The notes beneath the pieces were generated by a model. The model worked only from the letters and a program-made list of their open reading frames with translations. It did no database searches and was not told the origin of the DNA. From Limnomonas spitsbergensis (taxonomy: Eukaryota; Chlorophyta; Chlorophyceae; Chlamydomonadales), in NCBI GenBank assembly GCA_037349105.1, contig JAYJMM010000037.1:3038001-3102000 (forward strand): a stretch of DNA of 64,000 nt, in the 5' to 3' direction. Shown piece after piece: positions 13,273-38,314 of the stretch (position 1 is its first letter; every line of letters begins with the position of its first letter). A program made the position numbers and the translations under genes.

Positions 13273-13506
13273 TGACACGGTAGAGGATGCTGCATCAACC
13301 GCAGCTTGGCTAGCGTGCCTCTTCCGAGCTGGATCGTCGTGTTCCGACCTGGCTCCCGGCAGGAAACTCTCAAGAACTTCAGAGGCCAGCCCAAGAAGGC
13401 TTCGATGTGCCCTGACGGAGCGTCCATCGGAGAAGTTTAAATTGACGTCACCCCGAGATAGAGCCTCCTCAAGCGATTGCCGACTACGGTACTCATTATT
13501 GCACAT
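13273..13506 (-). pseudogene. Orphan BTB/POZ exon (copy A of the BTB-WD40 family)
   Basis: The exon encodes LEEALSRGDVNLNFSDGRS, then VRAHRSLLGLASEVLESFL, a typical N-terminal half of a BTB/POZ domain (D-V-x-L, then AHR-x-x-L). It ends at a good donor (GTAAGTGAAAC) like its paralogues. A 5-bp insertion (CGGTA on the + strand, about 13487-13492) puts the ancestral ATG at 13496 out of frame. An upstream ATG at 13506 could substitute. Exons 2, 4 and 5, including all WD40 blades, are absent, so this is a remnant. Confidence 0.75.
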
Positions 13507-13969
13507 ATTTAGTTATGCCAGTGAACCATGGAGTCCCTTCCTTCCTTTTCATGCGCAGATGAGCACACATTTCCGAATGGCAGAAAAACGTGACGGGAAT
13601 GAGGGTGTGATCCCCTGGTGTGAATCGTCAGTTGGGAAGAGGGGGCGAGCTTATAAGCGACCTTACAAAGCAAATTCCAACTTGTGCTGCTGAACCGGCG
13701 TAGATACTTCAGCGCAGAGAGCTTCAGCGTATGCAAATTATTTTTTGTGATGACACAATATCAGACTTGAGCTGAAAGCCTGAAACAGCTCTCCATTTGT
13801 TCGGTTTGTCTGTCAGGGATCTGGCTCTCCAGATCAAAGGCACCAATTAAACAAGCACTATTGTTCTGAAAGCACAGTACAGCTTCGCATCAGCCTACCT
13901 ACAATAGGAGGCGGTCGGCATCAAGAAAACGCGGTCGCCAAAAAGCCTGCATGAGCCTACATAAGCCTA

Positions 13970-14446
13970 CATGAGCAAGGTAGCACGATGTAGTCTTTGG
14001 AGCCATCATATCATATCATATCAGCAATATGATATGATATAGTAAATTCTGATATGTCTCCATGCATGGGCATGGTAAATCAGTAATGAGTTGGGAATAG
14101 GGCTCTTCTGCCGGTCATGCTACACCAGAATGGGCCTAGTTGTTGCAAGATTTTGCGACAAATAAGGCATTTATCATGGGAAATTTGGATGCATGGACGC
14201 ATGGTGACCCTTGGGCCGTAGGGATCAGTGGGAGCGCCTGCATGCTGCATGCTGCCATGTCAGTATGTATGTGAATGGGGTCAAGGGTCATGCACCCGCC
14301 AAATGCATGGGCACGTCCTTTTTCAATTCTGCAGATTTTAGGCTAAACTGTTTTTTCGACTGCAAAATATGATATGATCAGAACACCATATCATATCATA
14401 TTCATATCAGATCAGATCAGGTCCATATCGTGCTACCTTGTTCATG
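13970..14446. mobile_element. 477-bp foldback/MITE-like element with 20-bp terminal inverted repeats
   Basis: CATGAGCAAGGTAGCACGAT (13970-13989) is repeated inverted at 14427-14446 with one mismatch. Just inside, each end has an AT-rich hairpin. At 14008-14040 the hairpin has perfect 14-bp arms (ATATCATATCATAT) and a 5-nt spacer. At about 14366-14405 it has 12-bp arms. The element interrupts family Y exon sequence that is continuous at 27930-27970 and 54870-54900 (GCCTGCATGA followed by CCCCATGGTGG). No ORF is evident inside, so it would be non-autonomous. Target-site duplication is unclear. Confidence 0.65.
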
Positions 14447-14477
14447 AGTCCCATGGTGGATGCACCTGAAAGACAGG

Positions 14478-15171
14478 TGTAAAGTAGAGTGATGCGAGCA
14501 TTCTGGACGTGGATATGGCTAGGCCCCTTGAGCTTGATGTCCCTAAGGCCTGGCATGCCGTGGGGCTGCGCTGTGGCCTTCAGGGACAAACAATGTATGT
14601 ATTTATTCGTGATCTGTATTCTGTCACAAACGAGTTGCCCAGCAGCCACACAGATGTCATTTTTTGCCCCCTTTCTAGTTTCTTCTCTTCTCCCTTCTGA
14701 TCAGTGGGGCGCCCTCGCGGCAAAGCAGGGGGTGGGATTTGCTTGCTTTGTGGGGTTTTTGTTTTTGTTGTAGGCTTTGTTGAGGGCTGGTCTCTAGTGG
14801 AACTCAGGTGTCGGACTTGGTCTTCTTTGCCTTCCCGTCCTTTCCTTTTGTTCCTTTCCCCCCCTCTTCCTTTTATTTTCTTCTTTGTTCTTCTCCCTTC
14901 TGAACAGTTGGGCGCCCACGCGGCCGAGCTTTGAGCGGGCCCAGAGGTGTAACGTTATTGACAGATCTGTCCTGCACAACTACACAGGGTGGATGAACTG
15001 CTAGTGTGTATCAGCTGAAGGCGCTTTCCACTTCAAAGCACCGGTGTCTAAAAGTGTCGCCTCTCCTGCGCACACAGGTCCTGCCTGTCCATCACCGACT
15101 GTACCAGCACTGGAGACTTGTCCAGACATGCCATCCGGGACTTCCTCGAAGAGGCCTTCAAACTCCCCTGA
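14478..15171 (+). CDS. Family Y gene, copy Y1: two linked exons of an unrecognised gene
   Basis: The upstream exon ends at 14594 (GTATGT donor) and encodes a segment with LDVPKAWHAVGLRCGLQGQ. The next exon, 15078-15171, follows a CGCACACAG acceptor, is phase-compatible, and reads SCLSITDCTSTGDLSRHAI, then RDFLEEAFKLP and TGA. Five copies in the window (about 14.5, 28.0, 39.0, 41.4 and 55.0 kb) share the WHAVG exon and its following intron. Upstream coding sequence is broken by the inserted 477-bp element, so a complete gene is not visible. No known domain is recognised. The conserved reading frame in Y1 and Y2 despite DNA divergence is the only evidence for coding. Confidence 0.35.
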
Positions 15172-15639
15172 GAGGTCGTGTGCAGATTGGAACCGCATGA
15201 ACAGCCCCTAATTGAGAAACCATCATAAGACAGGTGAGTCAGCAGTGTTTATTTTACCGCACTTCAGCATGTAAATAATTGCCAATGGCCTTGGGGGACA
15301 GTTTGCCCTGTAACGTGTACCCTTCACCCTGTACCATGTTATGTAAATATCTAAGGTTCTAACCTCTTAAAACCCCCTAAATTCTTTCTGTAACTTCTTC
15401 TGTCCTGCCTGTCCTTTCAATGACACTTATGCTCTGCGATATTCGCTTTGTTTTGTGAATCAGCTCGTTATTGCACCCTTGCTCTTGGATGGATTCATTT
15501 CCTGGGCCTTCTTTGTGTCGTACATTTGCTCTCGGACCACTTCTTTGTCGCACCCTTGCTCTTGGACCTCCTGTCCATATCAGTGCCTGCTCTTTCTTTT
15601 TTGGAGACATAATCTGTATTGCACTTTGACCAACTTTTC

Positions 15640-16040
15640 AGTCCATCAATCTGAAAGACCAGCTCTGCCTCCTCCCTCACAGCCGCCCTCCTCTTCGATT
15701 AAGCCACTGCATGAAGTGAAAAATCTGCCTGGCTGCTACAGCCAGCTTTGACCTGCCCTGCTGGGCCCCCCACCTGTTTTTCTACCATTGCTGCGGGGCG
15801 GATGGGATTCACATTCAAATTTGACCTGTGTATTTTGTCTTCCCTTCTTTTACATACCTGCTGCTTGGGCCTCAGAGGCCGTATATCTATTTTCAGCCCT
15901 GAACTCGTCAAGCCCAGTTGTGGCCACTGGGCAGGTCATGTCAAGACTGTAAAAGGACTGGTTGATACCCAGTATTTGAGCATGCACTCCAAACTCGATC
16001 CCTGTCCTGGATCCTGAACCCCAAACCTGAACTCTTGCAG
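15640..16040. repeat. Unit block ii, copy 1 (dispersed non-coding repeat)
   Basis: A pyrimidine-rich lead (TTCAGTCCATCAATCTGAAAG) is followed by CCAGTTGTGGCCACTGGGC and AGGTCATGTCA. The same order recurs at about 19440-20040, 29090-30130 and 39980-40760. No consistent reading frame is shared between copies, so I treat it as repeat rather than gene. Confidence 0.55.
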
Positions 16041-16712
16041 GTCTTGCCTTCTGGACGTCACTCCTGAAGGAATGGGAGCGGTATGCCGCAGAATTATGCC
16101 AGGTTGAGCTTGATGAGGCTGTAGATTTTAGCGTTTTGTGTGACGTCAGGAAGGGAGGCATGAAGCCATGGACATATTGTTTTGACGTTGGGCTCATTTG
16201 CAAACAGCTGTGATCATTACGCAAGACAGGTATTGATATTAAGGCTTTGGGGCTTAATGTTTTACAGGAGAACATATGTGTTGCCAGCAGCACAGGCCAT
16301 GAAAGGCACTCCTGCCAACATTATTATATTATTCCAATACCAGTACACGGTCCAAAACACTGTTTCCTAACATTTGAGGCCGATCTAGGTCCCTTCCATG
16401 ACCTGCAGTGTCTAATCAGGTAGAATAAAATGCGACCCGCAAAGCTTAAAATAAACAAATGTTAAGCGTTGTATTGAAATGCACCATCCAGCTCCTGCTG
16501 TGAGATCCTGTCTTCACTCTTATTTGAATTCCTGGTGAATATTCAAGGTCCCTTCCCCTTGCATTGGGATCCTGACGTCATATGCTTTTATTTGAATACA
16601 CACTCTCAAATGCCCCCCCCGCCCCCTATGAACACTGACATTAGCCCCATCCCCATCCCCCCCCCTACACGCACACACTCTCATTCTCTCACACTGCAGG
16701 TATGGTGAATAG

Positions 16713-16958
16713 ATGCACGCTGTCAGCCTCAAATGTGTCCCAGCAGCTTTCCAGGCAGACTGCGGGCATTTGAGGCAAGGCTTGGTCAGACCTGCCAGGT
16801 GTGTGACATGTGTCAGCCTATGCTGCAGCCTGGTAGAAGTGGTCAATGAAAGGAGGGACCACGATGTTGTTCATCTTAATTACCCGCCAGAGCTTCGCAA
16901 GCGATGGTCCACAGGATGGTACCTTCATTTTCTCTGGAATCTGAATGGATGGCACTGA
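16713..16958 (+). CDS. Family Z exon-like ORF, copy Z1 (Cys/His-rich)
   Basis: This open frame encodes HAVSLKC...ADCGHLRQGL, then CVTC and LVEVVNERRDHDVVHL. A second copy at 42231-42446 keeps the same frame and residues (SLKYAC, ADCRHLRQ, VTC, VVVNERRDHNAVHL) although the DNA has diverged. That indicates past purifying selection. An AC-rich stretch and a CTGCAG or CTGTAG acceptor precede both. Spaced Cys residues hint at metal binding, but no known zinc-finger spacing is met. Confidence 0.35.
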   Translation: MHAVSLKCVPAAFQADCGHLRQGLVRPARCVTCVSLCCSLVEVVNERRDHDVVHLNYPPELRKRWSTGWYLHFLWNLNGWH

Positions 16959-17265
16959 TGCACCAACCCCTGGCAAACCTATTATGGTAAGTGTAGCTGA
17001 AGCACCCTAAATTAACATAGAACCATGCGAGTGTGCCTACACTGCCATGTGGCTACATTGTGTGGTCTTTATCACACACTGATGTCCTTGTATGGCTCCA
17101 TTGTTTTATGGGTTTTCAAAAAGTGGCTCAAGGGCTGAGGGTCCAGCCTGTCACTGGATGGCTCATAGCAGATCACCAAGCCTTATATAGTTATATGTCA
17201 ATATGCGTGTCAACGCTTTTTCATGGCTTGGCTTCAGTTCAGTTGCATTTACTCATGTTATGTGA

Positions 17266-17303
17266 TCCGATGTCCTATGCACAGCTAGCCATGCCGTTTG
17301 CGC
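17266..17303. repeat. Single-copy locus of the 37-bp minisatellite
   Basis: GATGTCCTATGCACAGCTAGCCATGCCG is one unit of the array expanded at 20630-20908 and 30161-31347. All three loci are followed by the same flank (TTAGGCC...CAATCAGGCCT, then GGCGGC and GGTGGACT), so they are paralogous sites. Confidence 0.7.
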
Positions 17304-17337
17304 CGCGAGCACTAGATCGTTCGAGGTTAGGCCCCAA

Positions 17338-17357
17338 TCAATCAATCAATCAATCAG
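17338..17357. repeat. AATC tetranucleotide microsatellite
   Basis: About five tandem copies of AATC lie in the flank of the single-unit 37-bp locus. The paralogue at about 31388 has one copy. Confidence 0.8.
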
Positions 17358-17589
17358 GCCTCTGGGAAATTGGCGGCCGCAGGACGGCCTGGTGGACTTG
17401 TAGCCATAAACAGCGTCACTTACCGTATTCATATCCCAAATCTTATGGACTGCTGCAAATCTTGCCCTAGCCTGAAATCACAGATTCATCCATATCCCGA
17501 AATGAGCTTGAGGAGCATCGTATCCAAACTTGCTGTACAGGATGGTGCAGATGCTGGCTGAGTGGACGGTAATTATAACTAAAAAACAG

Positions 17590-19430
17590 ATTTCACAACC
17601 ATGTCAAGGCTTTTCAGATCCGGATCTGCCACTGATTTGAAGATAAGCGAGGAATTATACGACCTGATCGAAATCAGGTCGAAATCCAGTTGATACTCTG
17701 TTCCGATAGCACCGTTTTTTCGACTCTCAGTCGACTGATTTTCACCAGCAAATTCGCGGTGCTTTCGAATTCGGATTATTCTCTTCTTATTGGAGTGCTA
17801 GGAGCCTTTTACAAGGGATTACCTGCTGTCCAGGAGCGAGAAGCTGCCTGGCAAACAGCTTAACCTCAATCTAATCCTCGGGCTACTGCACTAACCTTTG
17901 GATAATTCTTCTCTTATGGTTGACAGCAGTACGAAGTAACAAGATCCTGTTGGGGTCTTTTTCTCTGATGGCGACTGTTGGGCGACTGGTAGGCGGCCTT
18001 GACGAAATTGGGGACGAGGCAGACCGTAGTTCTAGTGGGTGCTGAGTCGATAGTTCATTGTTGATGAGAATCGACTGCTGGAGCAGTATATCGACTTGAT
18101 GCCAGGAAAAGGCTGGATTGAAAGCTCACAGTCACGACTTATAAGCGAAGCTAAGTGGAAGATAGTGCTTCAGGTGGGTGGAGGTGCGATCAGTTGAAGA
18201 GTGTAAGATAAGTAGAGGCGTCCTGGACTTATTAAGTCCCAAAGGCTCCAGGCAGTCACACAGTCTCTGGCCTCGATAAGAGGCAATATATCACAAGTGG
18301 AGATTAGTCCCAGAACAGATAAACAAGATAGGGTGATTCAACTTCGGTGCATACTTGAGTAAGAAGAGAAGAATTCCTGGAACGATCCAGGCATTCACTA
18401 AGTACCACAAACACTACTACTAAAACCCCCTGTTTTGGTAAGCAGAAAACCTACCAGTTTCAAGGCAAACGCATCATTTGGACAAGGCCCCTAAAATGAT
18501 TATGGTAGGTGAATTGGTAAGGCTTTTGGTAGGTTCAATCGACCGAAAACGCGACATCTACCGATTTGCATTCTGGTAGGTTTAAATTTCGGTAGGCCTA
18601 GAACCTACCGAAATAGCTACTCCTTGGCTACCATTTTTGCCTGGGTTGGCCTACCGATTGCACTACTGTCGCTACCATATTTACCTACCAGTTTTCATCA
18701 TTTGGTTGACCATTTGCTGCTTAGATTGGCCTACCGATTCCTCTGCTGCCGCTACCATATTTACCTACCAATTAGCATAATTTGGTCCATCAGGCGTTGC
18801 CCAGAATAGGCCGATTGCGCTCCTTTTGGTACCAATTGGGAGCGGCTTGCTGTACCCCTTTGTGCGGGTGGGGCTGACTAATGATGTGCTGGCTATTTCA
18901 ATAAACTGGTTTGCTCATCGCTTGCTGGAGGAAACAATTTGCAAAGAAACAATTGCCTGGAGAATAATTAAATCAATATTTTACAGCCATGAAATCTTTA
19001 CCGGTGGAATATATTAAATCAATATTTTACGGCCAGGAGATCTATACCGGTAGAATAATTAAATCAATATTTGACAGTCATGAAATCTATACGGGAAGAA
19101 TAATTCAAACAATATTTGACGGCAATGAAATTTATACCAGTAGAATAATTAGATCAATATCTACGGCCACGAGATATATGCGGGTAGAATAATTAAACCA
19201 GTATTTGACATTTGGTCTTCGAGGTCCTCAAGTGTTCAATCCTCCTGTCATCAACTACTCATTCAAGAAAGTGCTCCATAATAATGTCAGGATATAAAAC
19301 AGAATGCTTGCTCGCAAGCAAGGAAATGTATAGCAAAGGAAACTAATACATCATAAGTAAGTAATAAACCATCAGGATCCGAAATTAAAAAGAATGTACA
19401 AGCCACCCATTCGTGCGGTGCACCCATACG
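17590..19430. other. Unit-junction segment with no match to other units and several small inverted and direct repeats
   Basis: This 1.8-kb stretch separates the end of one unit from a partial re-start of block ii. It contains a hairpin at 17660-17681 (CGACCTGA, 6-nt loop, TCAGGTCG). It also has a perfect 11-bp inverted repeat at 18586-18614 (ATTTCGGTAGG, 7-nt spacer, CCTACCGAAAT). A roughly 80-bp direct duplication lies at about 18645-18790 and shares GGCCTACCGATT and GCTACCATATTTACCTACCA. No gene is recognised. It may be a foreign insertion or a recombination filler. Confidence 0.5.
18957..19203. repeat. AT-rich 45-bp tandem repeat (about 5.5 copies)
   Basis: The unit GAATAATTAAATCAATATTT continues as ...GAAATCTATACCGGTA and repeats every 45 bp with substitutions. 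Because 45 is a multiple of three, a 15-residue peptide (RIIKSIFDSHEIYTG) repeats in the + frame for 67 codons. No flanking coding evidence supports translation. Confidence 0.75.
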
Positions 19431-19439
19431 TCGTGACAC

Positions 19440-20040
19440 TGCCTAGGGGACGGGCGGGTTTAAGATTATAATTTCAATTTTCGAGAGTTGTGTATTGGAT
19501 CTGTGGGTACAACGACCATCACCAGAGATCTCTTAGTATCTGGCCATAGATTTTGGCAACGCCATGGCCCTGAGACCTAACCTCCTTGACCGAGCCTGTG
19601 TATTTAGTCTCCCCTCGCATTTACATACATACCCGCTGCTTGGGCCCCAGAGGCCGCTGATCCATTTTCAGCGCTAAACTCGTGGAGGCCAGTTGTGGCC
19701 ACTGGGCAGGTCATGTCAGGACTGTAAAAGGGCTGATTGATCCCCGGTATGGCAGTATTTGAACATGCACCCTGAACTTAAACCCTGCCCTGAATCCTGA
19801 CGCCCAAACCTCAACTCTGGCAGGTCCTGCCCCCATGGACGAGATTCCAGAGGCCACGGAGGCAGAATGCTACTTATGGATGCCAGGGTGAGCTCGCTTG
19901 ATGCGGCGGTGGATTTTGCTTTAAGTGTGATGACATCAGGAAGGGGGGCGCAAACACGATGTTTAACGTTGGGGCCCATTTGCAAAGATCTGTGATCCAG
20001 GTAGCGCTTGTGCAATCAAGACAAGAGAGGTATTTTAATA
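19440..20040. repeat. Unit block ii, copy 2
   Basis: The sequence matches 29275-30130 (GGGTTTAAGATT, GAGAGTTGTGTAT, ATCTCTT, GAGACCT, GAGCCTGTG, CCAGTTGTGGCCACTGGGC). Compared with 29781-29795 it lacks a TACCG micro-insertion after GCCTGTG. Confidence 0.6.
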
Positions 20041-20629: not shown

Positions 20630-20908
20630 CGGATGTCCCATGCACAGCCAGCCATGCAGCTTTGGCCGGATGTCCCATGCATAGCCAGCCATGCTACTTG
20701 GGACGGATGTCCCATGCACATGTTGGCTGGGCCGGATGTCCCATGCACAGCCAGCCATGCTGCTTGGGCCGGATGTCTCATGCACAGCAGCCAGCCATGC
20801 TGTTTGGGCCGGATGTCCCATGCACAGCTAGCACAGCCAGCCATGCAGGTTTGGCCGGATGTCCCATGCACAGCCAGCCATGCTACTTGGGCCGGATGTC
20901 CCATGCAG
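20630..20908. repeat. 37-bp minisatellite, about 7.5 units
   Basis: The unit is GGATGTCCCATGCACAGCCA, then GCCATGCTGCTTGGGCC. Since 37 is not a multiple of three, the same peptide cycles through all three frames, which explains overlapping ORFs on both strands here. Confidence 0.9.
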
Positions 20909-21292
20909 AGGGACGACCTGATGGACTCGTAGCCATAAATATGATCACTTATTCACACTTCGTAATTTCTCGCATGCTGCAATTCTGGCCCTAGCTTGGA
21001 ATTACAGATTCATCCATATCTCATGGGAATCGGCTTGAGGAGTATCGGATCCATGCTTGATGTACACAGTGGTGCACATGCTGGCTGGGAGGGGGGGCAA
21101 TGGTGACTAAAAGTGCGGATTGCACAACCAACATGTCCATGCGATTGCAGTGTCCCATGTGCCCTTATCAGTCAGCAACTGCTTCATAGTACAAAAGCTA
21201 GAGCACTATGCCCAGCATTCCTGCCCCGGTACAACTGCTGAAGGACTGTGGCTGCGAATGGGTATGTGTGCCCATTGCCCAACCCTGCTCCC

Positions 21293-22058: not shown

Positions 22059-22163
22059 GGCCTGCTAAAAAACTGAAACCTCATCACATGCTCCCACATT
22101 GTGTAGGCCTATAAGGAGGAGGACCATCTGAGGCTGACCTGCCCGCCCATACTGAACACAATT

Positions 22164-23530
22164 ATGCCATTTAGAGCTAAACAGAGCATTCATGCAGCCA
22201 ACTACGGTGATGTGGTGTGGGCCACCGATCACCTCCGATCGCAAAACCATCTCCAGAGCACGCCACAGTCCAGCTTTATACAGCACCTGTGTCAGGCAGC
22301 TGGGCTCCCTGTGTCAGCCGCCAGTTGGAGAGTCGTGAGGGAGCTACAGATCCAACCGTTTCAGCGAGGTTGGTGGCGCCATGTCCATCGCTACTACAAT
22401 GCAGCGGTAGTACCGGCAGCACTTGACGACAGCCTACCCATGGCGGCGTCCATGGCGGCTGATATGCAGCTCGCGCTCAGGCCAATGGAGGACGCGTTTG
22501 GTGAAGTGAACTGCTAAGTGCCTTAGAAGAGCTAGAGCGGGGAGCAGCCGCCTCTAAATTGTGTCTTGCAGTGGCTGACCTACAAATTCTCCCCGACGCA
22601 AAGATGCTAGTTCTAGTTGACGCTGCCTATGAGCGGGCGCAGATGGAGATCGTCGGCAGGGAACACCCTAGGGACCCCGCCACCAAACACAGGTCTGCGG
22701 CCGCCTACCACACCTGGTTTCAGCCTACAGCAGGCGCACGTCAGGAACCGCATTAGCAAAAGGGCGTGCGCTCGTGTGTGCAGTAACTTGAGGCTGCGAC
22801 TCCGAGGGGCCAACACAGCTGATAATAGAGGACGGCACAGCGATCAGCAGCGTGGCATACGCTACTGCCAATGGTCACCGGGGCTGGGCTGAGGGACACG
22901 GCCAACATATGGAGGAATGGAGGATGCACTGCATGTGTGCTTTTTGCCCTACCGTAGTGTGAAAGAGAGGCTGAGGGCGAGAGGTTGGCCGGCCCCCCAA
23001 AGGCCGCCACGGACTTTCAGCAGTTGTACCAGGGCAGGCATGGGTGGGAGGCTCTGGCTTTTGTTGAGGACGTGGTAGACGTTGTTGAGGGCTAGTCTGC
23101 TGTCGTTTTTCGCCTCCCTGGGGACGGGCTCATTCCCTTTTTGTCTCTCTTGCTTTTAGAGGCGGGGATCCTTCGGTCTGCCTTTGGAGGGGTGCTTTTC
23201 TTGGCCCTTTGTGCTCCTCTCTGTCTGTCCTCTAGCCTTAAGTTCCTTTCATTTTTTTCTCCCAACCAGACAGAACGTTGGAGAGCCCACAGGCAGCGGT
23301 GGGAAGCCCTGGTTTTGTGCAACTTATAGTTGAGCTGTTTGAAGGCTGTTCTCTTCAGGGGCAGGGGATGCAGTTTACGTGACCTTTGTTGTTTCTTGAG
23401 TGAAATTCCTAACCTTTCTTTCCTCTTATGCCTTCTTCTTTGTCTTTCCTAGCTGAGTTTTTGTTTGCCGACGTGGCCGAGCTTTATTTCCAGAGGTCTA
23501 GAGGCGTGACGTCACTAAAGCTAGGCAGCC
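22164..23530 (+). pseudogene. Family X gene, copy X3 (plus strand, divergent from X2)
   Basis: One frame (22164-22517) carries CQAAGLPVSAASWRVVREL, then QIQPFQRGWWRHVHRYYNA and MAADMQLAL. Another (22559-22756) carries DAAYERAQMEIVGREHPRD. They join only through a frameshift near 22510. Further on, a Cys-rich segment (HCMCAFC, about 22930) and YQGRHGWEALAFVEDVV (about 23030) follow. The 3' region ends in a pyrimidine-rich, CTCCCAAC...GACAG sequence and GACGTGGCCGAGCTTT. This end is shared with 14890-14970, 34350-34590 and 43880-43960. X2 and X3 start head to head about 100 bp apart. Confidence 0.5.
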
Positions 23531-24657: not shown

Positions 24658-27600
24658 CTAGCGCCACACTAGGATGCTGGATGAGAATATGCCCTCCTCT
24701 TCCACCGGAGCTGCTGTGATTAGGCACAGAGTCGTCAGGCCAGGGTCGTGGCAGTACGTCCAAAGAATGTGTCCCTCTTCAGGCTTGTAGTCATCCAAAG
24801 CCACCTGCCTGCTGATGTCCCAGGTTCTCAGCCATTGACCATAGGAGAATGAGGCCAGCACAGTAGCCCCCGAAGCGTCTAGGGCAACCTGGGTTGCATA
24901 GTCAGGATCGCATGGATCCTCAAACGCTGAGCCTCTGCACAAGCCGGTACCAAGATCCCACACCTTGATGGTCTTATCATGAACACAGCTGCTGACTGCG
25001 GTGCGGCCGCTGAAATCCATTCCAACGCTGTCGACTCCACCTCGGTGTCCCTCCATGGTGCGCACACATTCACTAGTGCGTGTATCCCACAATCGTACGG
25101 TCTTATCGTTGGAGCACGAGATGATCAAGCTGGTTTCTCCTAAGGATTGCCAATCATTGACTAGGCCGCTGTGCCCTGTCAGGCTCGGCATAGCCTCCAT
25201 CTCTCTTGAAATGTCCCACATGCTGATTGTCTCAGAGGAAGCGCCTTCACAGGTATATACTACACTGCTGACGCCGTGCCATTTAGTCCGATAAAGCGGC
25301 CCTGCTCCCTCAGGCTCAATTGAACCTCGGACCTGACGGCTGGCCAGGTCCAAGATATTGCTGTCAGAATCATTGACAACCAATGCCAGTCCATTGGCAT
25401 TGATGTCAAGGTCAAGATGACAACTCGTCCCAAGCTCCGATCGGTATGCGACCTGCCATTCTCTGATTGTCAATATCCCACATTTGGAGATACACTTGGC
25501 CAAGATGGCAGATGCTGAAAACAAGTTGAGAGTTCCACAGACAGCTCGTTGAGCCTGTCTTAGTTCCATCCCAGTTTTCAACAAGGCCATCACCCTGGGG
25601 GATGGAAAACATAGGTTAACAGTCATTCCCTTTGAATAAATAACCTCCCAGGTGATCTCATTATTGAGGCAATGAAAACCAACACATCCGCACTATCTCC
25701 CCTCCTTACTCACCTCCGCCACTAATGCGCACTTCACAGACAGGGGCTGGCTGATCCGAGGAACACATGATCCCTGAGGATGTGGGGAAACATAAACGTA
25801 AATCAATGCCATGCAACGTGCCCTGTATAAAGTGGTGATAATGAGGGTCATGGCAAAAGGGGCTACGGTACGCATCGCAGATTTCATTGCTGTTTTTTCA
25901 AGACATCAGAGCTGTTATTTAATGGAAATAACCATCTGGATGTCACCGGCATATGATGGGAAAAGCAATCATGTGTATCTCAATCAAAACTGCGCACACC
26001 CTCACCTTGAACCCAAACGGCAGGCCTGACATCACATTAATGACCTCCATACATGTTTCCTGACGGAGCCCATGCAGTAGGCCCCTCTGGACAGGGCTGT
26101 ACAGAGCACTCAGAATGGGAGAGACAGCTGGCTTTGTCGCCGCAGAGAGCTGAGACAGGCATGCCCGAATCATGGGCGTGTACTGCAGGGAGTCAGACAG
26201 CGCGAGCCATTCAAACAGATCTGGGCCGGATGCTGAGCTGGCAGCTGATGCCGATGATTGCACAAGAGTAGGAGGTGAGGGCCAGAACTGAGGCTTGGCA
26301 GCATCAAAGGCATTTGAACAAAGCTCCAGCACAGCCGGCATGTCGTACTGGTGCGCGATAGGCAGAATCCGAAAGGCTATGGCTGGGGTCACTGTGGATG
26401 CTGCCCCCTTGATCACTGCAAGATAAACATGAGGGCAATGGGTATTAGACACTGATGATTGGACATGCCAGTTGAGGTAAACAAGGGCAATGGCCATTCG
26501 ACGCTGAGTTATGAGACATGCCAGCTGACATAAACGCTCAGCCGATAAACCAAGCTTACCTGCGCGGTACAGTAACCTGAGCACTTCCATCCAGTCCTCC
26601 AGGCATCCATCAACCTATGGTAGTCAGAACAATATTTCTTTTTTGTCCCAGTCAGTAAACGGGGGTGAAGTTTTACACCCTAAAGGTGTAGAGCTTGATG
26701 TGCATAAGGCTCTAGGTCTATCAAGATCTGGTGTTAAAATGATTTTGGTCCAGGTGGGGGGTCCATAGGGGTGGGGCAACGTTGAAGGGGGGGCCAGGCT
26801 GGGGGTCTCCCGAAAAGTCCGAAGTCAGAAAGAAAGAAAATAACATTCCCTGCCCCAACAGGTCAGTGACTTTCACCATCTGCAATAGCGTTGAGGGTAC
26901 GAGTTAGGGGGGAAGCTGGGCAAGGAGGTCACTAAGAAGCACAGGGGACAGGTGCTCAAGGTGCATATATTCAAGCTGGCGTTAGATTCTAGCGTTATGC
27001 CTAGAGTCTCCCGTATATGACGCATTTTGAATTCTAGCAAAGGTAGTTAGGTAGTTAGAGCGCAAGCAGCAGCCCGGGCTGGATCCCATGCCTTCTTTCT
27101 GTTTCATTACTTGGACATTAGATGACTCGATAAATTGATGGTGCCTGGGTTCTCTGAGCGGATGATGATTGAATTATTGACGACCCTGTGTGATCCAATA
27201 CAAGACTGCACCATCTTTTAATTTAATGTAGTCTGCATCCATGTAAGCCTTTGCGCCAAATTATTGATTAACCGGGCTGCGCGAACCTCTGCTGCGCGCT
27301 TACTATCAATTCCAAAACCGCATAGTGGTGGATAGGTATGACCCCCTGGTATGACAGTCTCCTCATGATGGGACCATTGATCCAGGTGATCTATCACTTG
27401 TCCACGCAAAGATCTCAAGCAGTTGATACTCAGTTCACTTACTGACACGGTAGAGGATGCTGCATCAACCGCAGCTTGGCTAGCGTGCCTCTTCCGAGCT
27501 GGATCGTCGTGTTCCGACCTGGCTTCCGGCAGGAAACCCTCAAGAACTTCAGAGGCCAGCCCAAGAAAGCTTCGATGTGCCTTAACGGAGCGTCCATCGG

Positions 27601-27879: not shown

Positions 27880-28411
27880 GGCGCAGATGCACAAGAAGGA
27901 GGACTGCATTAAGAACAATCGGTCACCGAACAGACTGCATGAGCCTGCATGAGCCTCATGAAGGCAGATACTGCCGAAAGATAGGTGCTGAGTAGAGTGA
28001 CGCCACCAGCCCTGAGCACGAGGTCTCTAGCACCTGGCATGCGGTGGGGCAGCGCCAAAGCCTTAAGGGGAACACAAGGTATGTATTTATTTGTGGTATG
28101 CATAGTGTGGTAAACGAGTTGCCCAACAGCCATGCAGCACTGTCACGCACAACTACACAAACACGGTGGATGAGCTGCTAGTCTTAAGCAGTTGAACACG
28201 CTTTCCATTGTAAAACATGGGTACCGGTATTTGAAGGTCCCATCAACTCTGCGCACATAGGTCCTTACCATTAGCGACTGTGCCAACACAGGGGACATGT
28301 CCGGTCATGCCATTATTGGCATCCTCAAAGCGGCCTTCGAGCTCCCCTGAGGGGCATGCACCACTCGTAACCGAATGAACAACCGCTAATTGAGAAAGTC
28401 ATCATTGGGCA
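27880..28411 (+). pseudogene. Family Y gene, copy Y2
   Basis: An exon ending at 28078 (GTATGT donor) encodes SPEHEVSSTWHAVGQRQSL. After a CGCACATAG acceptor (to 28260), the frame LTISDCANTGDMSGHAI, IGILKAAFELP and TGA (28348-28350) matches Y1. The direct splice would, however, enter in a different frame from the conserved one, so the copy is probably not functional. GGGCAG/GTGCGT at about 28412 corresponds to a further donor in the other copies. Confidence 0.4.
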
Positions 28412-29089: not shown

Positions 29090-30130
29090 GCATCTCCTTT
29101 TTTAGTCCATAAATCTGAAGGACCAGCTGTGCCTTTTCTCTCACAGCCGCCTTCCTCTATGGCTAAGCCAGAGCAGAAAGTGACAACTCGGTTGGGCCGC
29201 TACAGCCTTGACCCGCCCAGCCTTGACCCGCCCTGCTTCGACCCCCTCCTGTATTTCTACATGAACTGCCTAGGACAAGGGTGGGTTTAAGATTCAAAAT
29301 TCAAATTTGGAGAGAGTTGTGTATGGGGTATTTTGCAGGGGAGGTCTGTTGTGTGCAACTGCTATCACCAGGGATCTCTTGCCACCACAAATGATTCTTG
29401 AACGGTGAATATTCAAATTGTTGTGTCTGGCACGTATAACAGCCAGGCCTTCCTGAGTTATGTATCAATCTGCTTCGTAAAATACATTTTTCGTCGCGCA
29501 GGTAAAAAGAATGTAAAAACAGTGCCGCAGCATTATTATTTTATGCATCGCCACGCAGGGGTCATTTCAGACACTTTTCGGCCTCCGCCCACCGACCACA
29601 ACGTAAACCCTAGTTCAACACCGCGCACCGCTGATTTTTTAATTATTATTAGCGCGCAGCATGTCCGCGCAATCCAACAATTAATTAATTTGAGATAAGT
29701 CAAAGGCATTCTACGGTATTCAAATGGGCGAAATCGTTTTCGGCAAGGCCCTTGCCCTGAGACCTCACATCCATGACCGAGCCTGTGTACCGTATTTAGT
29801 CTCCCTCAGCATTACCATACCTGCTGCTTGGGCCCCTGAGGCCGCTGATCCATTTTCAGCGCTGAACTCGTGGAGGCCAGTTGTGGCCACTGGGCAGGTC
29901 ATGTCAGGACTGTAAAAGGACTGGTGGATCCCCAGTACATGAACATGCAAACGGAACTCAAACCATGCCCTGAATCCTGAGCCCCAAACCTTAACTCTTG
30001 CAGATCCTATTTCCAGAGGCAGCAGAGGCAGCATGCCACGGATGGATGTTAGGGTGAGCTTGATGAGGCGATGGATTCTGCGTAATGTGATATCAGGAAG
30101 GGGGGGCGTAAACATGATGTTGAACATTGG
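29090..30130. repeat. Unit block ii, copy 3
   Basis: Matches copies 1, 2 and 4 (CCAGTTGTGGCCACTGGGC, AGGTCATGTCAGGACTG). It has extra AT-rich sequence at about 29440-29740 that is not obvious in copy 2. Confidence 0.5.
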
Positions 30131-30160
30131 GGCCCATTTGAAAAAACTTGTGATCCTTAC

Positions 30161-31347
30161 GATGTCCCATGCACAGTCAGTCATGCTGCTTGGCCTGGAT
30201 GTCCCATGCACAGCCAGCCTTGCTGCTTGAGCTGGATGTTCCATGCACAGCCGGCCATGCTGCTTGCGCTCATTGTCCCATGCACATCCAGCCATGCTGC
30301 TAGGACTGATTGTCCCATGCGCAGACAGCCAGCCATGCTGCTTGGACCGAATGTCCCATGCACAGCCAGGCATGTTGCTTGGGCCTTATTTCCCACGCAC
30401 AGTCAGCCACGCTGCTAGGACCGAATGTACCATGAGAAGCCAGCCATGCTGCTTGGGATGGATGTCCCAAGCACAGCCAGCCATGCTGCTTGGGATGGAT
30501 GTCCCATGCACAGCCAGCCATGCTGCTTGGGATGGATGTCCCATGCACAGCCAGCCATGCTGCTTTGGCCAGATGTCACATGCACAGCCAGCCATGCTGC
30601 TTGTGCCGGATGTCTCAATCACAGCCAGCCATGCTCCTTGGCTCAGATGTCCCATACACAGCCAGCCATGCTGCTTGGGCTGATCGTCCCATGCACAGCC
30701 AGCCATGCTGCTTGAGCTCATTCTCCCATGCACAGCCAGCCATGCTGCTTGGGCTCATTTTACCATGCACAGCCAGCCATGCTGCTTGGGCTGATCGTCC
30801 CATGCACAGCCAGCCATGCTGCTTGAGCTCATTCTCCCATGCACAGCCAGCCATGCTGCTTGCTCCGGATGTCCCATGCGCAGCCAGCCATGCTGCCTGG
30901 CCCCGATGTCCCATGCACAGCCAGGCATGCTGCTCGGACCGGATGTCTCAAGCACAGCCAGCCATGCTGCTTGTGCCGGATGTCACGTACACAGCCAGCC
31001 ATGCTGCTTGCTCCGGATGTCCCATGCACAGCCAGCCATGCTGCTTGCTCCGGATGTCCCATGCCCAGCCGGCCATGCTACTTGGGCCGGATGTCCCATG
31101 CACAGCCAGCCATGCTGCTTGGGTCGATGTCCCATGCGCAGCCAGCCATGATGCTTGGGCTTAAATTCCCATGCACAGCCATGCATGCTGCTCGCGCCGG
31201 ATGTCCCATGTGCAGCCAGCGATGCTGCTTGGCCCAGATGTCCCATGCACAGCCGGCCATGCTGCTTGGCCCAGATGTCTCAATCACAGCCAGCCATGCT
31301 CCTTGGCTCAGATGTCCCATGCACAGCCAGCCATGCTGCTTGGGCCA
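30161..31347. repeat. 37-bp minisatellite, about 32 units
   Basis: This is the same unit as at 20630-20908. Units differ mainly at the GGATGTCCCAT segment. Higher-order structure is present: a block of about 110 bp (three units) containing CTGATCGTCCCATGC and CTCATTCTCCCATGC occurs at about 30678 and again at about 30788. The variant TCTCAATCACAGCCAGCCAT occurs at about 30612 and 31278. Confidence 0.9.
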
Positions 31348-31650
31348 GGAGCCGTAGATCGGTGGAGCCCATGGAGGTTAGGCCGCAATCAGGCCTTGGG
31401 AAACTTGGCGGCGGCGGAACGGCCCGGTGGACTCGTCACCATAATTTGGTCACTTATTCATAGATCCTATTTTCTTTATTGATCCCATTCTGAGCCTAGC
31501 TTTGAATCACAGATTCATCCATATCCCAAGGAAATTGGTTTGAGGAGTATCGGACACATGCTTGCTGTACAAATTGGTGCACATGCTGTCTGGGGGGGCA
31601 ATTCTGACTAAAAGTTTGGATTGAACAACTAACATGTCCGTGTCATTACG

Positions 31651-31816
31651 TAGTCCTATCAGGGGTCCTATGTACCCATCCATGCAGATCCATCAGATGA
31701 GGCCTTGGCTTATGCTGTGTTATTCTATGTATGGGAACTGATCACCCCGGAGAATGTGATGGAAGAGCATCAGATGCAGCTCAATGAGTCAGATGGCAGG
31801 ACACAGCTGGGCAGCT
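31651..31816 (+). CDS. Short exon-like open frame of unknown function
   Basis: Between an in-frame TAG and TGA lies a stretch reading HADPSDEALAYAVLFYVWEL, then ITPENVMEEHQMQL. Its balanced composition looks protein-coding, unlike its surroundings. It lacks an in-frame start codon, so it would have to be a terminal exon. A second open frame (31835-32026, ending VPMEYGPYTMPAVPARQF) follows in another frame. The region 31640-32340 has no counterpart in the other units. Function is unknown. Confidence 0.25.
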
Positions 31817-32342
31817 GAAACTTCATCGTCCTGAATGAAAGTAATCAGAGGTGCTGCCGCGCAATACGTAAATGGCAAGCATCTCAAACGTTGTCTTATA
31901 GAGATAATGTTTGAGAGACAAACTAGTAGCTGGGTCATGAATCAAGCCATGCCACACATTCAGATGTTAGTGCCTATGGAGTATGGACCCTACACGATGC
32001 CGGCTGTCCCTGCACGCCAGTTTTGAGGTGGGGGGCCCTGCCTGCTTGGCTCCGTAGTTGGATCTGCGGCCGATCAAGCGGAATGGGTTCAACATATTTC
32101 GTCAGGAACAAGAACCCATGCGAAGTTTTAAGAGCACCCAGCGGTGTCGAGCCAGGGTTAGCCTTGGACGTTCTTTAAGCAGATGGCAGGGCCATATGTA
32201 GCACGATTTCAACGATCGTTTCGGGAGCCCAGGGATCCATGATGAGGATGCAGATATTTAGCGCTTACTTAAGCTGCACTCATCTGAGTTATGTGCATAG
32301 ATCAATGTGTGCTCCTCGCTCGCTCCCGTCATCCTTGCTTCC

Positions 32343-33158
32343 CTAGTTCGTCATGGTCGCTGAGGAACTAGAAGTAAGCATGTGGCAGGTCCTCCTCATG
32401 CTTGTCATCTCTGTCTGCCATGCTATGTTGGCAGTCCTTTTTCTCAAGCCGCTGACTGTTGTGCCGTCCTCTAGTCTTGGCTGAGCTGTTGGGGCTGAGT
32501 CGCAGCCCTTAGTGTATGCCCACACCAACGCACTACTTCTTGTTGTTGGCGAGCTAGCATGAACCCGCCATAGGATCAATTTGCGCCTCCTCTTAGGCTT
32601 TGTCCACTAGCGCCATCACCTTTGTGACGCAGGGCTGCTGTAGGTCGGTTGCTGCCTGAAACAGCCGCTGCAGATCCTCAAGGGCACCCAGCGCTTCAGT
32701 CATTGCACCAGGTGCGCCTTTGGGTGCTTTGCATGACTACTTGTTGCGTGTTGGCCGCCATGGCTGCTGCCAATAGTGGGCTGTCTTGCTCTGCTGCTGG
32801 TGCCACATCTGCACCATGGCAGCGGAGCGTGTGATGCCACCCGCCACGTGAAAACATTATTAATTTCCCCCCATCTATCTGGCTGCGGACGCGGGCAGCC
32901 TAGAGGTTGGACACAGGTGCTGAAGCAGGCTGGAGTGCATCATCCTGTTGAGGTACTGCCTCGGCTGGGGTTGACCAGTGGCCCACACCACATGTTCGTA
33001 TTCGGGTGCCGCGTATATAGCCGACAACCATGTGTGTTAAGGCAGATGGGCCCGCGGCGCACCTTGGCGGTTGTGTGGCGTATACTGTGCAACACGGCTG
33101 CCATACGCACCGTAGAACGTACCATGGCCTTCCTCATGATGCCGCTTACATGATGCAT
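32343..33158 (-). pseudogene. Family X gene, copy X4 (minus strand)
   Basis: Pieces in several frames match X1 and X2. They include an N-terminal GIMRKAMVRSTVRMAAVLHS (33158 downward), NMWCGPLVNPSRGSTSTG (about 32945) and a C-terminal EMTSMRRTCHMLTSS with stop at 32343. Frameshifts separate them. Confidence 0.45.
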
Positions 33159-33239
33159 GATGCATGATAGTTGAATTATTGGACAGGCTTTTGCATGGCC
33201 CTGTTAAAAAACTGAAACCTCATCACATGCTCCCACATT

Positions 33240-34610
33240 TGGTAGGCCTATAAGGAGGAGGACATTCTGAGGCTGACCTGCTCGCCCATATTGAACAAGA
33301 TTATGACATTTAAAGCTAGGCAGAGCATGCAGCCAACTACGGTGATGTGGTGTGGGCCAACGGTCACCTCCGACCGCACCACTATCTCCAGAGCAAGCTG
33401 AAGTCCAGCTTTCGACAGCAACTGCGTCAGGCAGCGGGGCACCCTGCGTCAGCCGCCAGTTGGGCAGTCCTGAGGGAGCTACAGATCCAACCGTGACATC
33501 GTGGTTGGTGACGCCACGTCACTAGCTTTTACAATGCAGCGGTAGCATCGGCAGCACATAACGACAGCCCACTCATGGTGACAGCCATGGCGGCTGATAT
33601 GCAGCTGGTGCTCACTCAGTCAGACCAATGGAGGACGGAATTGGCGCACTGAACTGCTAGGTGCCTTAGACGAGCTAGAACGGGTGGCAACCGCCCTTAA
33701 ACTGCGTCAGGCAGTGGCTGACCCACAACTTCTCCCCGTGGCAAAGGTGGTAGCGCTGGTGGACGCTGCTTATGTGCAGGCGCAGATGGAGGTTGTCGGC
33801 CGGGAAGACCCTAGGGACCCCGCCACCTAACACTGGTCTGCGGCTGCCTAGTGCCTACCACGCCTGTGCGCCAGCCTACAGCAGGTGCACGTCAGGAACG
33901 GCACTGGCAAAAGGGCGTGCGCTCGTGTGTGCACCAACTAAAGGCTGCGACTCGGAGCAGCTAGCACAGCTGATAATAGAGGACAGCGCAGTGACACACG
34001 CGACTGCCAACGGTGCTGGGCTGAGGGACACGGCCAACGTATGTGCTTTCAGTACCCTACCGTGAAAGAGAGGCTGAGGGCGGGAGGTTGGCAGGCTCCC
34101 CGAAGGAAGCCACGGACTTAAAGCATTTGTACCAGGGCAGGTATGGTTAGAACATGGTAGACTTTGTTGAGGGATAGTCTGTTAGTCCCTTTTTTGCCTC
34201 CCTGGGGGTTGGCTCTTTCCTTTTTTGTCTCTCTCTTGCTTTCAGAGGCGGGGATCCTTCGGTCTGCCTTTCCGTTTTCTGGAGGGGGGGTTCTTGGCCC
34301 TTTGTGCTCCTCTCTGTCTTTCCTCTAGCCTTTAGTACCTTTCATTTCCCTCCCAACTAGACAGGACGTCGTAGAGCCCGCAGGCAGGGGTGGGAGGCTC
34401 TGGTTTTTTTAAGGCTAGTATTTTCAGGGGCAGGGGACAAAGTTTTCCTGACCTTTGTGTACTTGTTGTTTGGCGGGTGAAATTGCTATCCTTTCTTTCC
34501 TGTAGTGTCTTCTCCTTTGACGTTCCTACCTACTTTTTGTGTCCCTTGACGTGGCCGAGCTTCATTTCAGCATGGTCCAGAGGTGTAACGTCATTAGAGC
34601 AAGACAGCCT
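33240..34610 (+). pseudogene. Family X gene, copy X5 (plus strand, divergent from X4)
   Basis: Aligns along its length with 22140-23530: the shared lead (GCAGCCAACTACGGTGATGT), the central helix-coding segment, LIIEDSAVTHATANGAGLRD (about 33970), and the same pyrimidine-rich 3' end with GACGTGGCCGAGCTTC. Stops and frameshifts are frequent, so it is broken. Confidence 0.45.
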
Positions 34611-34689
34611 CCAGGGGTTCTTGATCAGCTTTAAATATTTTGTCAACTTTGACGGCCAGTCCATCTGTGTGTCGTAATGCATGCACTGC

Positions 34690-35735
34690 TTTTTGATACC
34701 GGAATAAATGTTCAATATTGACATGCTGCCTGCATGCCATGTGGGGGATATGTAGATATGTTCTCGTGGCTGGGCTGCAATTGTCAATTTCGTATACCTT
34801 TCAGTCTCCAGCCTGATGCCTCATGCACGAATAGCCACGCTGCTTGGGCATGCGTTTAAAAGCCGGTCGAGGTTTAGCCCCAATCGGGCAAAGTCGGGCA
34901 TGCGGCCATATGACTGGTAGTATATTTTATCTCATAGCAAAGATATAAACACTGGCTGCTGATGGATATTATTGTATACATCGAACCTCATAGAAGTTGA
35001 AATCATATTAATCAGACTGTCACATATTCAAACAAATCTGAACTAGCAGCATCCTAGACAATGAAGCTTCTATCTTGCCGACGCTTTGATAGACTGAACA
35101 ACTGGCCGTCATCCACTGCTGTTCCCAAGAAAGAAATACCATACTGTAGGCAGGTGCAAAGCTACCAAAGTACAGATGATCGGATATCGACGGTAACGAA
35201 GGAGAAGTACCGAATAAGTTACCAACATGACGGCATTTTAAATAAATTTTGAACAATCTTGGGTGGATTGTAAGTTTGAGGTAAAGACAAAGAAGAAGCC
35301 AGGTTCCGGAAGAAGAAGGGAGACAAAGAACTATGAAAGCCTATATCAGCTACCATGTTTTTAGTGTGCCCCATACCACTTTCGGCAGGCCAACTGGTAG
35401 CCACCACTACACCCATGGAAGCCACAGGTTGGACTGCCTATGGCCGGCGACCCAGGCACCTGCGCCTGGTGCACCTAGCCCCTTCGACCATAGACCCTTA
35501 CAAAGCTGAGTTGTGTCTAAAGCGCCCTAAAGTAGCCATGGTCAGCAAGGGGACATCACGCCAGCGAAATCATAATACGCATCGTAACAGTTGTTGCCCA
35601 AATGCCCGCCAAGCATATAAACTACAAAATAACAATCTGCCACTCCCCCCTGATCATCTGGTGAAGTAACCTTCATCCCTGCAAAGTATATTATATAATC
35701 TTCAAAAATAAGGCATGATAATGTTATGCATGGAG
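34690..35735. repeat. Unit spacer and 3' flank of the BTB-WD40 gene, copy C
   Basis: The sequence is paralogous to 23590-24650. No gene is seen. Confidence 0.5.
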
Positions 35736-35739
35736 CACT

Positions 35740-38314
35740 CTAGCGCCAAACCTGGATGCTGGATGAGAACGCGCCCTCCCCTTCCACCGGAGCAGCTGTG
35801 ATTAGGCACAGAGTCGTCAGGCCAGGGTCGTGGCAGTATGTTCTCAGTCCATGTCCCTCTTCAGGCTTATAGTCATCCAAAGCCACGTGCCTGCTGATAT
35901 CCCAGGTTCTCAGCCGCAGACCCCCGGAGAATGAGGCCAGCACAGTGGTCCCTGAAGCGTCTAGGGCAACCTTAGTTGCATAGTCAGGATTGCATGGATC
36001 CTCGAACGCCAAGCCTTTGCACAAGCCGGTACCAAGATCAAACACCTTGATGGTCTTATCATGTACACAGCTGCTGACTGCGGTGCGGCAGCTGAAATCC
36101 ATTCCAACCCTGTTGACTCCACCTCGGTGTCCCTCCATTGTGCGCACACATGTACTAGTGCGTGTATCCCACAACCGAACGGTCTTATCGTCGGAGCATG
36201 AAATCATCATGTTGGTTTCCTCCGAGGATTGCCAATTATTGACGGTGTCGCTGTGCCCTCTCATGCTCGGCATAGCCTCCATATCCCTAGAAATGTCCCA
36301 CATGCTGATCACGTTTACAGCGGCTCCAGTGATATATACTGCACAGTTGACACCGTGCCAGGTAGGGCAAAAAATGAATCCTGCACCCTCTGGCTCAAAT
36401 GCACCTCGGAGCTGACGGCTGGCCAGGTCCCAGATATTGCACGTGTCCTCATACCTGCTGAACAATATCAGTCCATTCGCGTTGACGTCAAGGCCAATCA
36501 GGGTGTCCCAGCCCCGTTCAATTGGCATGCGACCTGTCATCCTCTGATTGTCAATATCCCACATTTGGAGATACACTTGGCCCTCATGGCAGACATCGAA
36601 AACCAGCTGGGAGTTCCACAGGCAGCTCGTGAACTGTGTATTAGTTCCAACCCAATCTTCAACAAGGCCATCACCCTGGGGAATGGAAAACATAGGTGAA
36701 GGCTGAGCTCAAGGCAGTAATTCCCTCTAAATAAATAACCTCCCAGGTGATCTCATTATTGAGGCAAATGCAAACCAGAACATCCGCACCATCACCCCTC
36801 TTTACTCACATCCGCCACTACTGCGCACTTCACAGACGGGGGCTGGCTGATACGAGGAACACATGATCCCTAAGGATGTAGGGCAACATAAACGTCAATC
36901 AAGACCATGCATCGCACCATGTAAGCGTTTACAGTGATAATGAGAAGGGCCATGGCTAATGGGACTACGCATCGCAGATTTCATTGCTGTGTTTTGATCA
37001 GATCATAGCTGTTTCAATGGAAACAACCATCTGGATGTCACCGGCATATTATAGGAAGATCAAAACAATTTATCTCTCAGACATTCACTCTCACCTTGAA
37101 CCCAAACGGCAAGCCTGACATCACATTAATGACCTCCAGACATGCTTCCTGACGGAGCCCCTGCAGTAGGCCCCTCTGGGCAGGGCTGTACAGAGCACCC
37201 AGAATGGGAGAGACAGCAGGCTTTGTCACCTCAGAGAGCTGGGATAGGCATGCCCGAATCATGGTCGTTTACTGCAGGGAGTCGGACAGCGCGAGCCATT
37301 CAAACAGATCTGGCCCAGCAGTGGACGCTGAGCTGGCTGCTGATGCTGAGGATTGCGCATTTGCAGGAGGTGAGTGCCAAAATTGAGGCTTGGCTGCATC
37401 AAAGGCACGTGAACAAAGCTCCAAAATAGCTGGCATGTTGTACTGGTGTGCAATAGGCAGAATACGGAAGGCTATGGCTGAGGTCACTGCTGAAGCTCCC
37501 CCCTTGATCACTGCAAGATGAGCATGTGCAGCAGGCATTAGACACCGATCATTGGTCGTGCCAGGCTACGACATGAACAGCCGAAGAGCTGATAAACGAA
37601 CATACCTGTGGAATACAAGATAACATGTTTTAGGGACCGCTCAGACTACGGTAATGATTTGATTATAAGCTATGGTTGCAGGTCAAGATAGATTTGTCAA
37701 AACTGTAGTGAGAAAATGGAATGCAAAACTAGTTTGAACATTGTAGTTGGAACACAATCGGTCACTCGTATACCGATAGGGAGGATCAAACATTCAAACA
37801 ATCAACATTGTTTGCACCATCTGATCATGCACTATACAGTAATGAGTGCACACATAACCGACTGAAGTTGAGTGGATGCCCCATGATTCAGGGCACTGGT
37901 TCTTCTGGATGCTTAACTTTTGCAAGGTTGTATGCATGGGCAGTTCGACACATGGGAGTATTGGGGCTATGCAGCCTCTTCATCATGGGACCATTGATCC
38001 TCATAGTTGCATCGATATTGACCCAGCAAGTTGCCTTTCACTTGCTTGTACACATATAGATCTTTATCAGCTAATACTCGTCCACTTACCGGTACTGACA
38101 TTGTAGAGGATCTTGCATCGACAGCAGCCTGGCTAGCATGCCGCTTTTGAGCTGGATCTTCGGGTTCCAACCTTGCCTCTGGAAGAAAATCTCTCAGAAT
38201 GATAGAGGCCAGCCCTAGAAGGCTCCGATGTGCCATGACGGAGCGGCCATCGGTAAAGCTCAATTTGACGTCACCAAGAGAAAGAGCCTCCTCAAGCGTG
38301 TGCAGACTACTCAT
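35740..38314 (-). pseudogene. BTB-WD40 fusion gene, copy C, with one nonsense codon
   Basis: Exons: 38314-38090, 37645-37606, 37510-37095, 36869-36810, 36675-35740. All splice sites are GT-AG and all phases close. Exon 1 is two codons longer because a CCGGTA insertion sits at the donor (38090-38096). Exon 2 is only 40 nt instead of 55 and has diverged. Exon 3 has a six-base in-frame insertion. A TAA (37271-37269) replaces the Tyr codon of SLQYTPMIR, truncating the protein after the BTB region. The WD40 exon is fully open (311 codons) with blades ending WDID, IWDL, MWDIS, LWDTR, VFDLG and TWDIS. The lesion is recent-looking, or the read is wrong at one base. Confidence 0.8.

Follow-up and report, generated by a model that had tools for sequence, protein, structure and literature searches.

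What gave rise to the short insertions in which CCG, CGG or CCGG stands between two copies of the dinucleotide TA? This question is raised by a 64,000-nucleotide stretch of the Limnomonas spitsbergensis genome, here called the window (C37:3038001-3102000, in an assembly of 260,226,709 bases in 124 contigs), where such inserts appear as the octamer TACCGGTA and the heptamers TACCGTA and TACGGTA. A preliminary description of the window had taken them for excision footprints of a TA-targeting transposon, and this view is supported by the enrichment of the motifs, by the insertion status of several sites, by the presence of CCG-ended elements and by the empty sites of these elements; none of the three outcomes that the description had named as refuting it was obtained. 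We conclude with high confidence that these inserts were left behind by the excision of a cut-and-paste transposon that duplicates its TA target and carries 5'-CCG...CGG-3' ends.

The window contains 20 motif sites, namely eight copies of TACCGGTA, as the preliminary description had counted, and six each of TACCGTA and TACGGTA; one octamer (19045..19052) lies in a 45-bp tandem array according to the motif count and array map and was left out of the scars. Because tandem arrays occupy about one-fifth of the window, they were masked before motif statistics, leaving 50.5 kb of the window and 107 kb of a 200-kb sample from the rest of the genome (158 kb combined). Expected counts were taken from a second-order Markov model, with 200 dinucleotide shuffles as an extra control; CpG and TpA are depleted in this DNA, with observed/expected ratios of 0.63 and 0.71. 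In the masked window TACCGGTA occurred 7 times against 0.24 expected and ranked first among palindromic octamers. The masked sample without the window gave 9 against 0.60, where among palindromes only TTAATTAA ranked higher, and 25 against 4.45 for TACCGTA/TACGGTA. Taken together, the octamer was found 16 times against 0.85 expected (about 19-fold) and the heptamers 37 times against 6.3 (about 6-fold), and the maxima reached in the shuffles of the masked set were 4 and 11, respectively.

The same enrichment was found in the whole genome, where the preliminary description had proposed that the motifs be counted, and there it holds against matched controls. TACCGGTA occurs 20,538 times, compared with 2,364 for the control palindrome TAGGCCTA of the same composition and 1,971 for TACTAGTA, and TACCGTA plus TACGGTA reach 45,855, compared with 7,422 for the matched 7-mers TACGCTA plus TAGCGTA. 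These totals are unmasked and partly swollen by arrays (e.g., C3:690076-711020, which repeats every ~4 kb). Subtraction of the matched controls leaves an excess of about 18,000 for the octamer and about 38,000 for the heptamers, so that TACCGTA/TACGGTA and TACCGGTA stand at roughly 2:1. In masked DNA, TACCGA (34 versus 33) and TACCGC (52 versus 43) stayed near expectation, in keeping with an enrichment specific to the motif. The most raised neighbor of the octamer is TACCAGTA/TACTGGTA (14 versus 2.7 in the masked set; 14,149 genome-wide), the form expected from decay of TACCGGTA at its CpG. Around the scars no strong common motif was seen, although A is weakly over-represented at the second position ahead of TACCGTA (18 of 34). 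A restriction-site effect was considered and rejected, ACCGGT outside TACCGGTA being found 30 times against about 22 expected, and so was a tandem-repeat artefact, since the excess persists in the masked counts.

Enrichment aside, paralogous copies allowed us to distinguish insertion from substitution at 10 of the 20 window sites, and five of these 10 proved to be clean insertions relative to a single TA. The TA-CGG-TA at 13485..13491 has one empty paralogue (38188-38430), which reads GAC-TA-CTCATT. The TA-CCG-TA at 17421..17427 corresponds to a single TA in the paralogues 31336-31580 and 20830-21075, and that at 29788..29794 to CTGTGTATTTAG in 19481-19727 and 40460-40705. The TA-CCGG-TA at 38087..38094 faces a single TA in 27319-27561 and 48276-48505, its pairwise alignments showing a gap of 6 bases and, a short way upstream, a second difference of 1 base. 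These four had already been listed in the preliminary description; the fifth, the TA-CGG-TA at 25864..25870, had not, and it is matched by a single TA in 36840-37086, with a third, more diverged copy (45934-46219) also lacking the five bases. As the sites at 17421, 29788 and 38087 have two empty paralogues each, insertion is favored over deletion. Some of the alignments come from the tandem paralogous regions at 21280-46902, which are ~78% identical and hold three WD40-repeat open frames. Outside the window, one copy of a ~410-bp repeat that belongs to the element family described below (L061) reads GGAA[TACCGG]TATGC where two others (L062, L063) read GGAATATGC.

Elements with the predicted ends do exist in this genome, as dispersed miniature inverted-repeat transposable elements (MITEs), which bears out the suggestion that TA-flanked CCG...CGG elements be sought. 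When 276 kb were searched for TA-CCG...CGG-TA flanking inverted repeats of 20 bp (at most 6 mismatches, at most 10 kb apart), one match of 183 bp was obtained (L009:5762-5944), and the reverse order CGG...CCG gave no match in the same scan. When this 183-bp element was used as a query, 40 of 158 candidate matches were scored, consisting of itself and 39 others at 79-84% identity; all 40 cover most of the element, and they lie on many contigs. We inspected 21 copies (20 fetched from the scored matches, plus L009), which diverge by 7-20% from their majority sequence and have differing flanks: TA is present on both sides in 18, CCG starts all 21, and CGG ends 16. The left end is CCGTAGAC in 20 of the 21 and CCGTATAC in one, and the right ends are at most two changes away from CCGTAGAC. 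The family is thus described by TA flanks, ends CCGTAGAC...GTCTACGG, inverted repeats of ~20-30 bp and a non-coding body, with the pattern TA-CCGTAGAC(N)4TTTGCCTC...-TA, and occurs in 183-bp and ~400-bp forms. Genome-wide, the terminal pattern TACCGTAGACNNNNTTTGCCTC (at most one mismatch) has 492 matches and its reversed pattern has 1; among 100 terminal matches listed there are pairs ~183 bp apart and pairs ~395-450 bp apart, and three copies of ~395-450 bp were read. No BLAST match to either form was obtained in the window at E 0.01.

The insertion behavior of the family can be read from paralogous empty sites. L055 compared with L003, and L051 compared with three window copies, show a MITE in one locus and one TA in its counterpart (43777..43778, 23093..23094 and 34175..34176 in the alignments to L051), indicating that TA is duplicated on MITE insertion. 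TA duplication, inverted repeats, a short non-coding body, dispersed high copy number and terminal-base scars are all features of Tc1/mariner-type MITEs, and the CCGTAGAC elements are probably such a family. Judging from the matching ends that link them, this family is most likely the source, or one source, of the scars. Four MITE copies (L041, L043, L058 and L063) have TACCGGTA, TACCGTA or TACGGTA within 100 bp, and TACCGGTACCGGTA adjoins L041. In the literature searched, which did not extend to transposon databases of the Repbase/Dfam type, the MITE family was not found described, and among the 15 listed of 355 papers that contain TACCGGTA none appeared relevant.

Both kinds of scar could follow from a single cleavage geometry. 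A Tc1/mariner-type transposase would cut one strand at the element end and the other strand 3 nt inside, leaving on each broken chromosome end TA plus a 3-nt 3' overhang CCG. In full overlap, two of the three bases would pair around a central C:C mismatch, and repair would give TACCGTA or TACGGTA; with a one-base slip, CG would pair with CG, and fill-in would give TACCGGTA. Thus, 3-nt CCG overhangs would explain the in-register CCG/CGG and the slipped CCGG products alike. According to excerpts of PMC7827188, Sleeping Beauty and mariner are nicked 3 bases inside the element, and the resulting 3-nt 3' overhangs become the footprint. Products of other registers were not in excess in masked DNA (TACGTA, 11 versus 11.9; TACCCGTA, 2 versus 1.8; TACCGATA, 2 versus 1.5; TACCGCGGTA, 0 versus 0.04). 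Other geometries were rejected: 2-nt overhangs would, by reasoning, yield TACCGGTA alone, 4-nt overhangs would also yield TACCGTTA/TAACGGTA (seen once versus 1.29 expected), and for longer CCGT...ACGG scars TACCGTACGGTA occurs 89 times genome-wide versus 121 for its reversed control. If the proposed geometry is right and the scars are as numerous as considered below, the fixed two-product spectrum would be a natural genome-wide record of register choice at a 3-nt overhang, and the ratio of the two products would show in what way breaks with a defined overhang are joined by the host.

How the scars compare in number with the resident elements is a separate issue. The masked 158 kb contain 53 copies of the motifs where about 7 would be expected; two of these copies are the L009 element's own ends. 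One intact element per 276 kb scanned corresponds by scaling to ~940 in the genome, an estimate that rests on a single observation and is uncertain at least five-fold by standard Poisson limits; a second, stricter count is given by the 492 terminal matches. Since the genome totals are unmasked and array-inflated, the 5x10^4 excess scars are taken as an order of magnitude. At least 10 scars per resident element are likely. We put forward more tentatively, as a possibility that falls a little short of even, that the genome is saturated, with ~5x10^4 scars (one per ~5 kb) against ~10^3 elements, and that the lineage is dominated by excision, by tens to one; the scar octamer would then rank with the genome's most over-represented non-simple octamers. 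The scar type itself is already known, and the unusual part is its abundance. The signature is frequent enough for genome-wide counting, and the published footprint work, as represented in the excerpts available, concerns few loci or modest sets of polymorphic sites that distinguish two genomes. Being small insertions, the scars could also shift the reading frame of genes or pass for binding motifs.

Several observations speak against the excision reading. Five of the 10 testable sites are not clean insertions. The TACCGTA at 22950..22956 has gapped, unclear alignments, the paralogues of the TACCGGTA at 28222..28229 differ by multiple indels and substitutions, the TACGGTA at 49420..49426 has a poor alignment only and lies outside the multiple alignments, and the TACCGGTA at 44310..44317 is accounted for by substitutions (paralogues TACTGGCA and TACCAACA). 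The fifth, the TACCGGTA at 41099..41106, is a probable scar with no empty paralogue; its paralogue at 42130-42137 reads TACCAGTA, exactly the difference expected of CpG decay. Hence two examples in the preliminary description, which had placed these motifs at 28211 and 22948, did not stand, and the comparison of paralogues recommended there yielded true insertions at half of the aligned sites, plus L061, and no clean insertion at the other half. Its statement that the short insertions are always CCG or CCGG plus TA was overstated, as only four (five by paralogue alignments) of the 152 short indels collected have CCG, CGG or CCGG between duplicated TAs. Moreover, no case was found of a locus whose copies include one with the element and one with a scar. 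With tandem arrays left in, the unmasked sample ranks TACCGGTA only 14th among palindromic octamers. The reversed control ATGCCAT (64,196 genome-wide) exceeds the 45,855 of TACCGTA/TACGGTA, and that for the octamer, ATGGCCAT, reaches 8,302; however, both are unmatched controls, as they contain neither CpG nor TpA, which are depleted here. Other words are raised in masked DNA, namely TACTAGTA (7 versus 0.41), AACCGGTA (9 versus 2.1), TTCCGGTA (7 versus 2.4) and TACAATA (19 versus 10), and AT-rich TA-x-TA words likewise. We rejected TACTAGTA as a second scar, as five of its seven sites belong to one locus and its genome total is partly tandem; it might be a slipped-join scar from a CTA-ended element, though arrays may account for its excess.

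The search for the transposase also weighs on this side. DDE_3 (PF13358) genes are present, with 150 scored of 438 candidates, and none of the 15 DDE_3 loci examined has a transposase whose ends match those of the MITEs. The Tc1-like transposase of ~2.45-kb tandem arrays (five loci, L035-L039) was rejected because its inverted repeats are different (CGATACATCTGACCC...), and the 10 loci L025-L034 have no credible TA inverted repeats. Searches with PF01359 (Transposase_1) and PF03184 (DDE_1) gave no match, but as their control genomes were equally silent, these negatives do not demonstrate absence. At C57:546413-550000, where three terminal matches lie ~4 kb apart, no transposase was present in the 3.6 kb read. 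The arrayed DDE_3 (Tc1/IS630-type) gene deserves a description of its own: its period is ~2.43-2.49 kb, exactly 2,448 bp in L035 (C114:3207500-3213500), and DDE_3 tandem arrays also occur on C4, C19, C21, C27, C84, C93, C109 and C123. It has 751 homologues, nearly all of the 120 listed having an identity of ~43-57%. In 21 of the first 30 listed, the longest contig measures 2.3-2.7 kb, a size that would fit a widespread tandem or circular organization of a similar kind. A second, distinct DDE_3 gene set (L025-L034) clusters chiefly on C30 and also on C31, C67, C14 and C93, and its origin is possibly viral or from a symbiont.

The alternative that survives best proposes that the scars come mainly from other, unrecognized TA-targeting elements sharing a terminal CCG, and that the CCGTAGAC MITEs contributed few of them. 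Only one CCG-ended element was seen in 276 kb, compared with the 53 motifs in the masked 158 kb, and because scars far outnumber recognizable elements, most may stem from another CCG-ended element that is now rare or goes unrecognized. The slightly high TACCG outside scars, as in TACCGC, also leaves room for undetected CCG-ended families. On the other hand, the CCGTAGAC family is the only one with the predicted ends in the 276 kb scanned, and scans for TA inverted repeats with no constraint on the terminal bases returned three matches, not above some other dinucleotides. We consider this alternative unlikely, and the MITE family may have made most of the scars.

A selected functional motif, such as a protein-binding or recombination site, would suit the palindromic form of TACCGGTA and its scatter in unrelated contexts, and the raised AACCGGTA and TTCCGGTA would fit a degenerate version of it, although decaying scars would match them too. 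This explanation is highly improbable, since the odd-length TACCGTA/TACGGTA with the same flanking TAs are enriched as well, both motif types show up in alignments as insertions of 5 or 6 bp with a duplicated TA, and the most raised neighbor, TACCAGTA/TACTGGTA, is the expected CpG-decay form. Chance combined with a biased reading of indels between ~78% identical paralogues, with the octamer arising from composition or tandem repeats, could draw on the choice offered by 152 indels and on the motif copies within arrays, but is hardly credible when the excess appears alike against shuffles, Markov expectation and whole-genome matched controls and in an independent sample, and when the four or five indels with exactly CCG, CGG or CCGG between duplicated TAs are not expected by chance.

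The window holds further motif sites, known from the motif count. TACCGGTA at 2267..2274, 2328..2335 and 39480..39487 and two TACCGTA 20 bp apart (9043 and 9063; 9043..9069) lie outside the paralogue alignments, and TACGGTA at 29712..29718, 37647..37653 and 52695..52701 and TACCGTA at 47539..47545 are not among the 10 aligned sites. Over 56014-63704 a 29-bp unit is repeated in tandem ~256 times, its + strand strongly skewed in C and T, and further long arrays are found at 30161-31345 (37-bp units), 50131-51970 (30/45-bp) and 55199-55970 (16-bp). An open reading frame of 542 aa in GC-rich DNA at 40-1668 has no Pfam match, and telomere-like TTTAGGG words are present in the sequence, a weak pointer to a green-algal or plant lineage.

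Among known systems, PIF/Harbinger elements (Tourist) can be set aside, for they duplicate 3 bp (TAA/TTA) and excise mostly precisely, whereas here the duplication is the 2-bp TA and the scars keep terminal bases. The Sleeping Beauty footprint is TA-CWG-TA, and the termini of Tc1 and Sleeping Beauty are CAGT. Here the termini are CCGT, and TACAGTA/TACTGTA is found 14 times versus 11.2 expected. The overhang would accordingly differ, CAG there and CCG here, and it is the CCG overhang that would permit the extra slipped CG:CG register and with it the second product, TACCGGTA. In common with Sleeping Beauty and Tc1 are the duplicated TA target and, in the proposed mechanism, 3-nt 3' overhangs from the element ends that turn into the footprint (PMC7827188, in the excerpts). 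Stowaway and mariner-like elements leave 1-4 terminal bases between TAs (excerpts of PMC1925063 and PMC4561436), and the MITEs described here resemble the Stowaway and grass mariner elements of the excerpted reports in their small size, inverted repeats, lack of coding sequence and TA duplications and, if the scars are theirs, in footprints of terminal bases. Their termini differ, the rice mariner consensus being CTCCCTC (Table 1 of PMC4423477, a source available in part) and the MITE ends being CCGTAGAC. The yeast excision of Osmar5 and 14T32 would likewise be similar under the proposed mechanism, with a mariner-type transposase, a staggered cut inside the element and terminal-base footprints (PMC1925063 and PMC4561436, in part), but that is an experimental system, and the evidence here is fossil alone. 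Finally, rice mariners show an insertion:excision ratio near 2:1 in the excerpted part of PMC4423477, whereas here the scars appear many-fold above the resident elements; if they do exceed them by tens to one, the rice pattern of insertions outnumbering excisions fails for this lineage.

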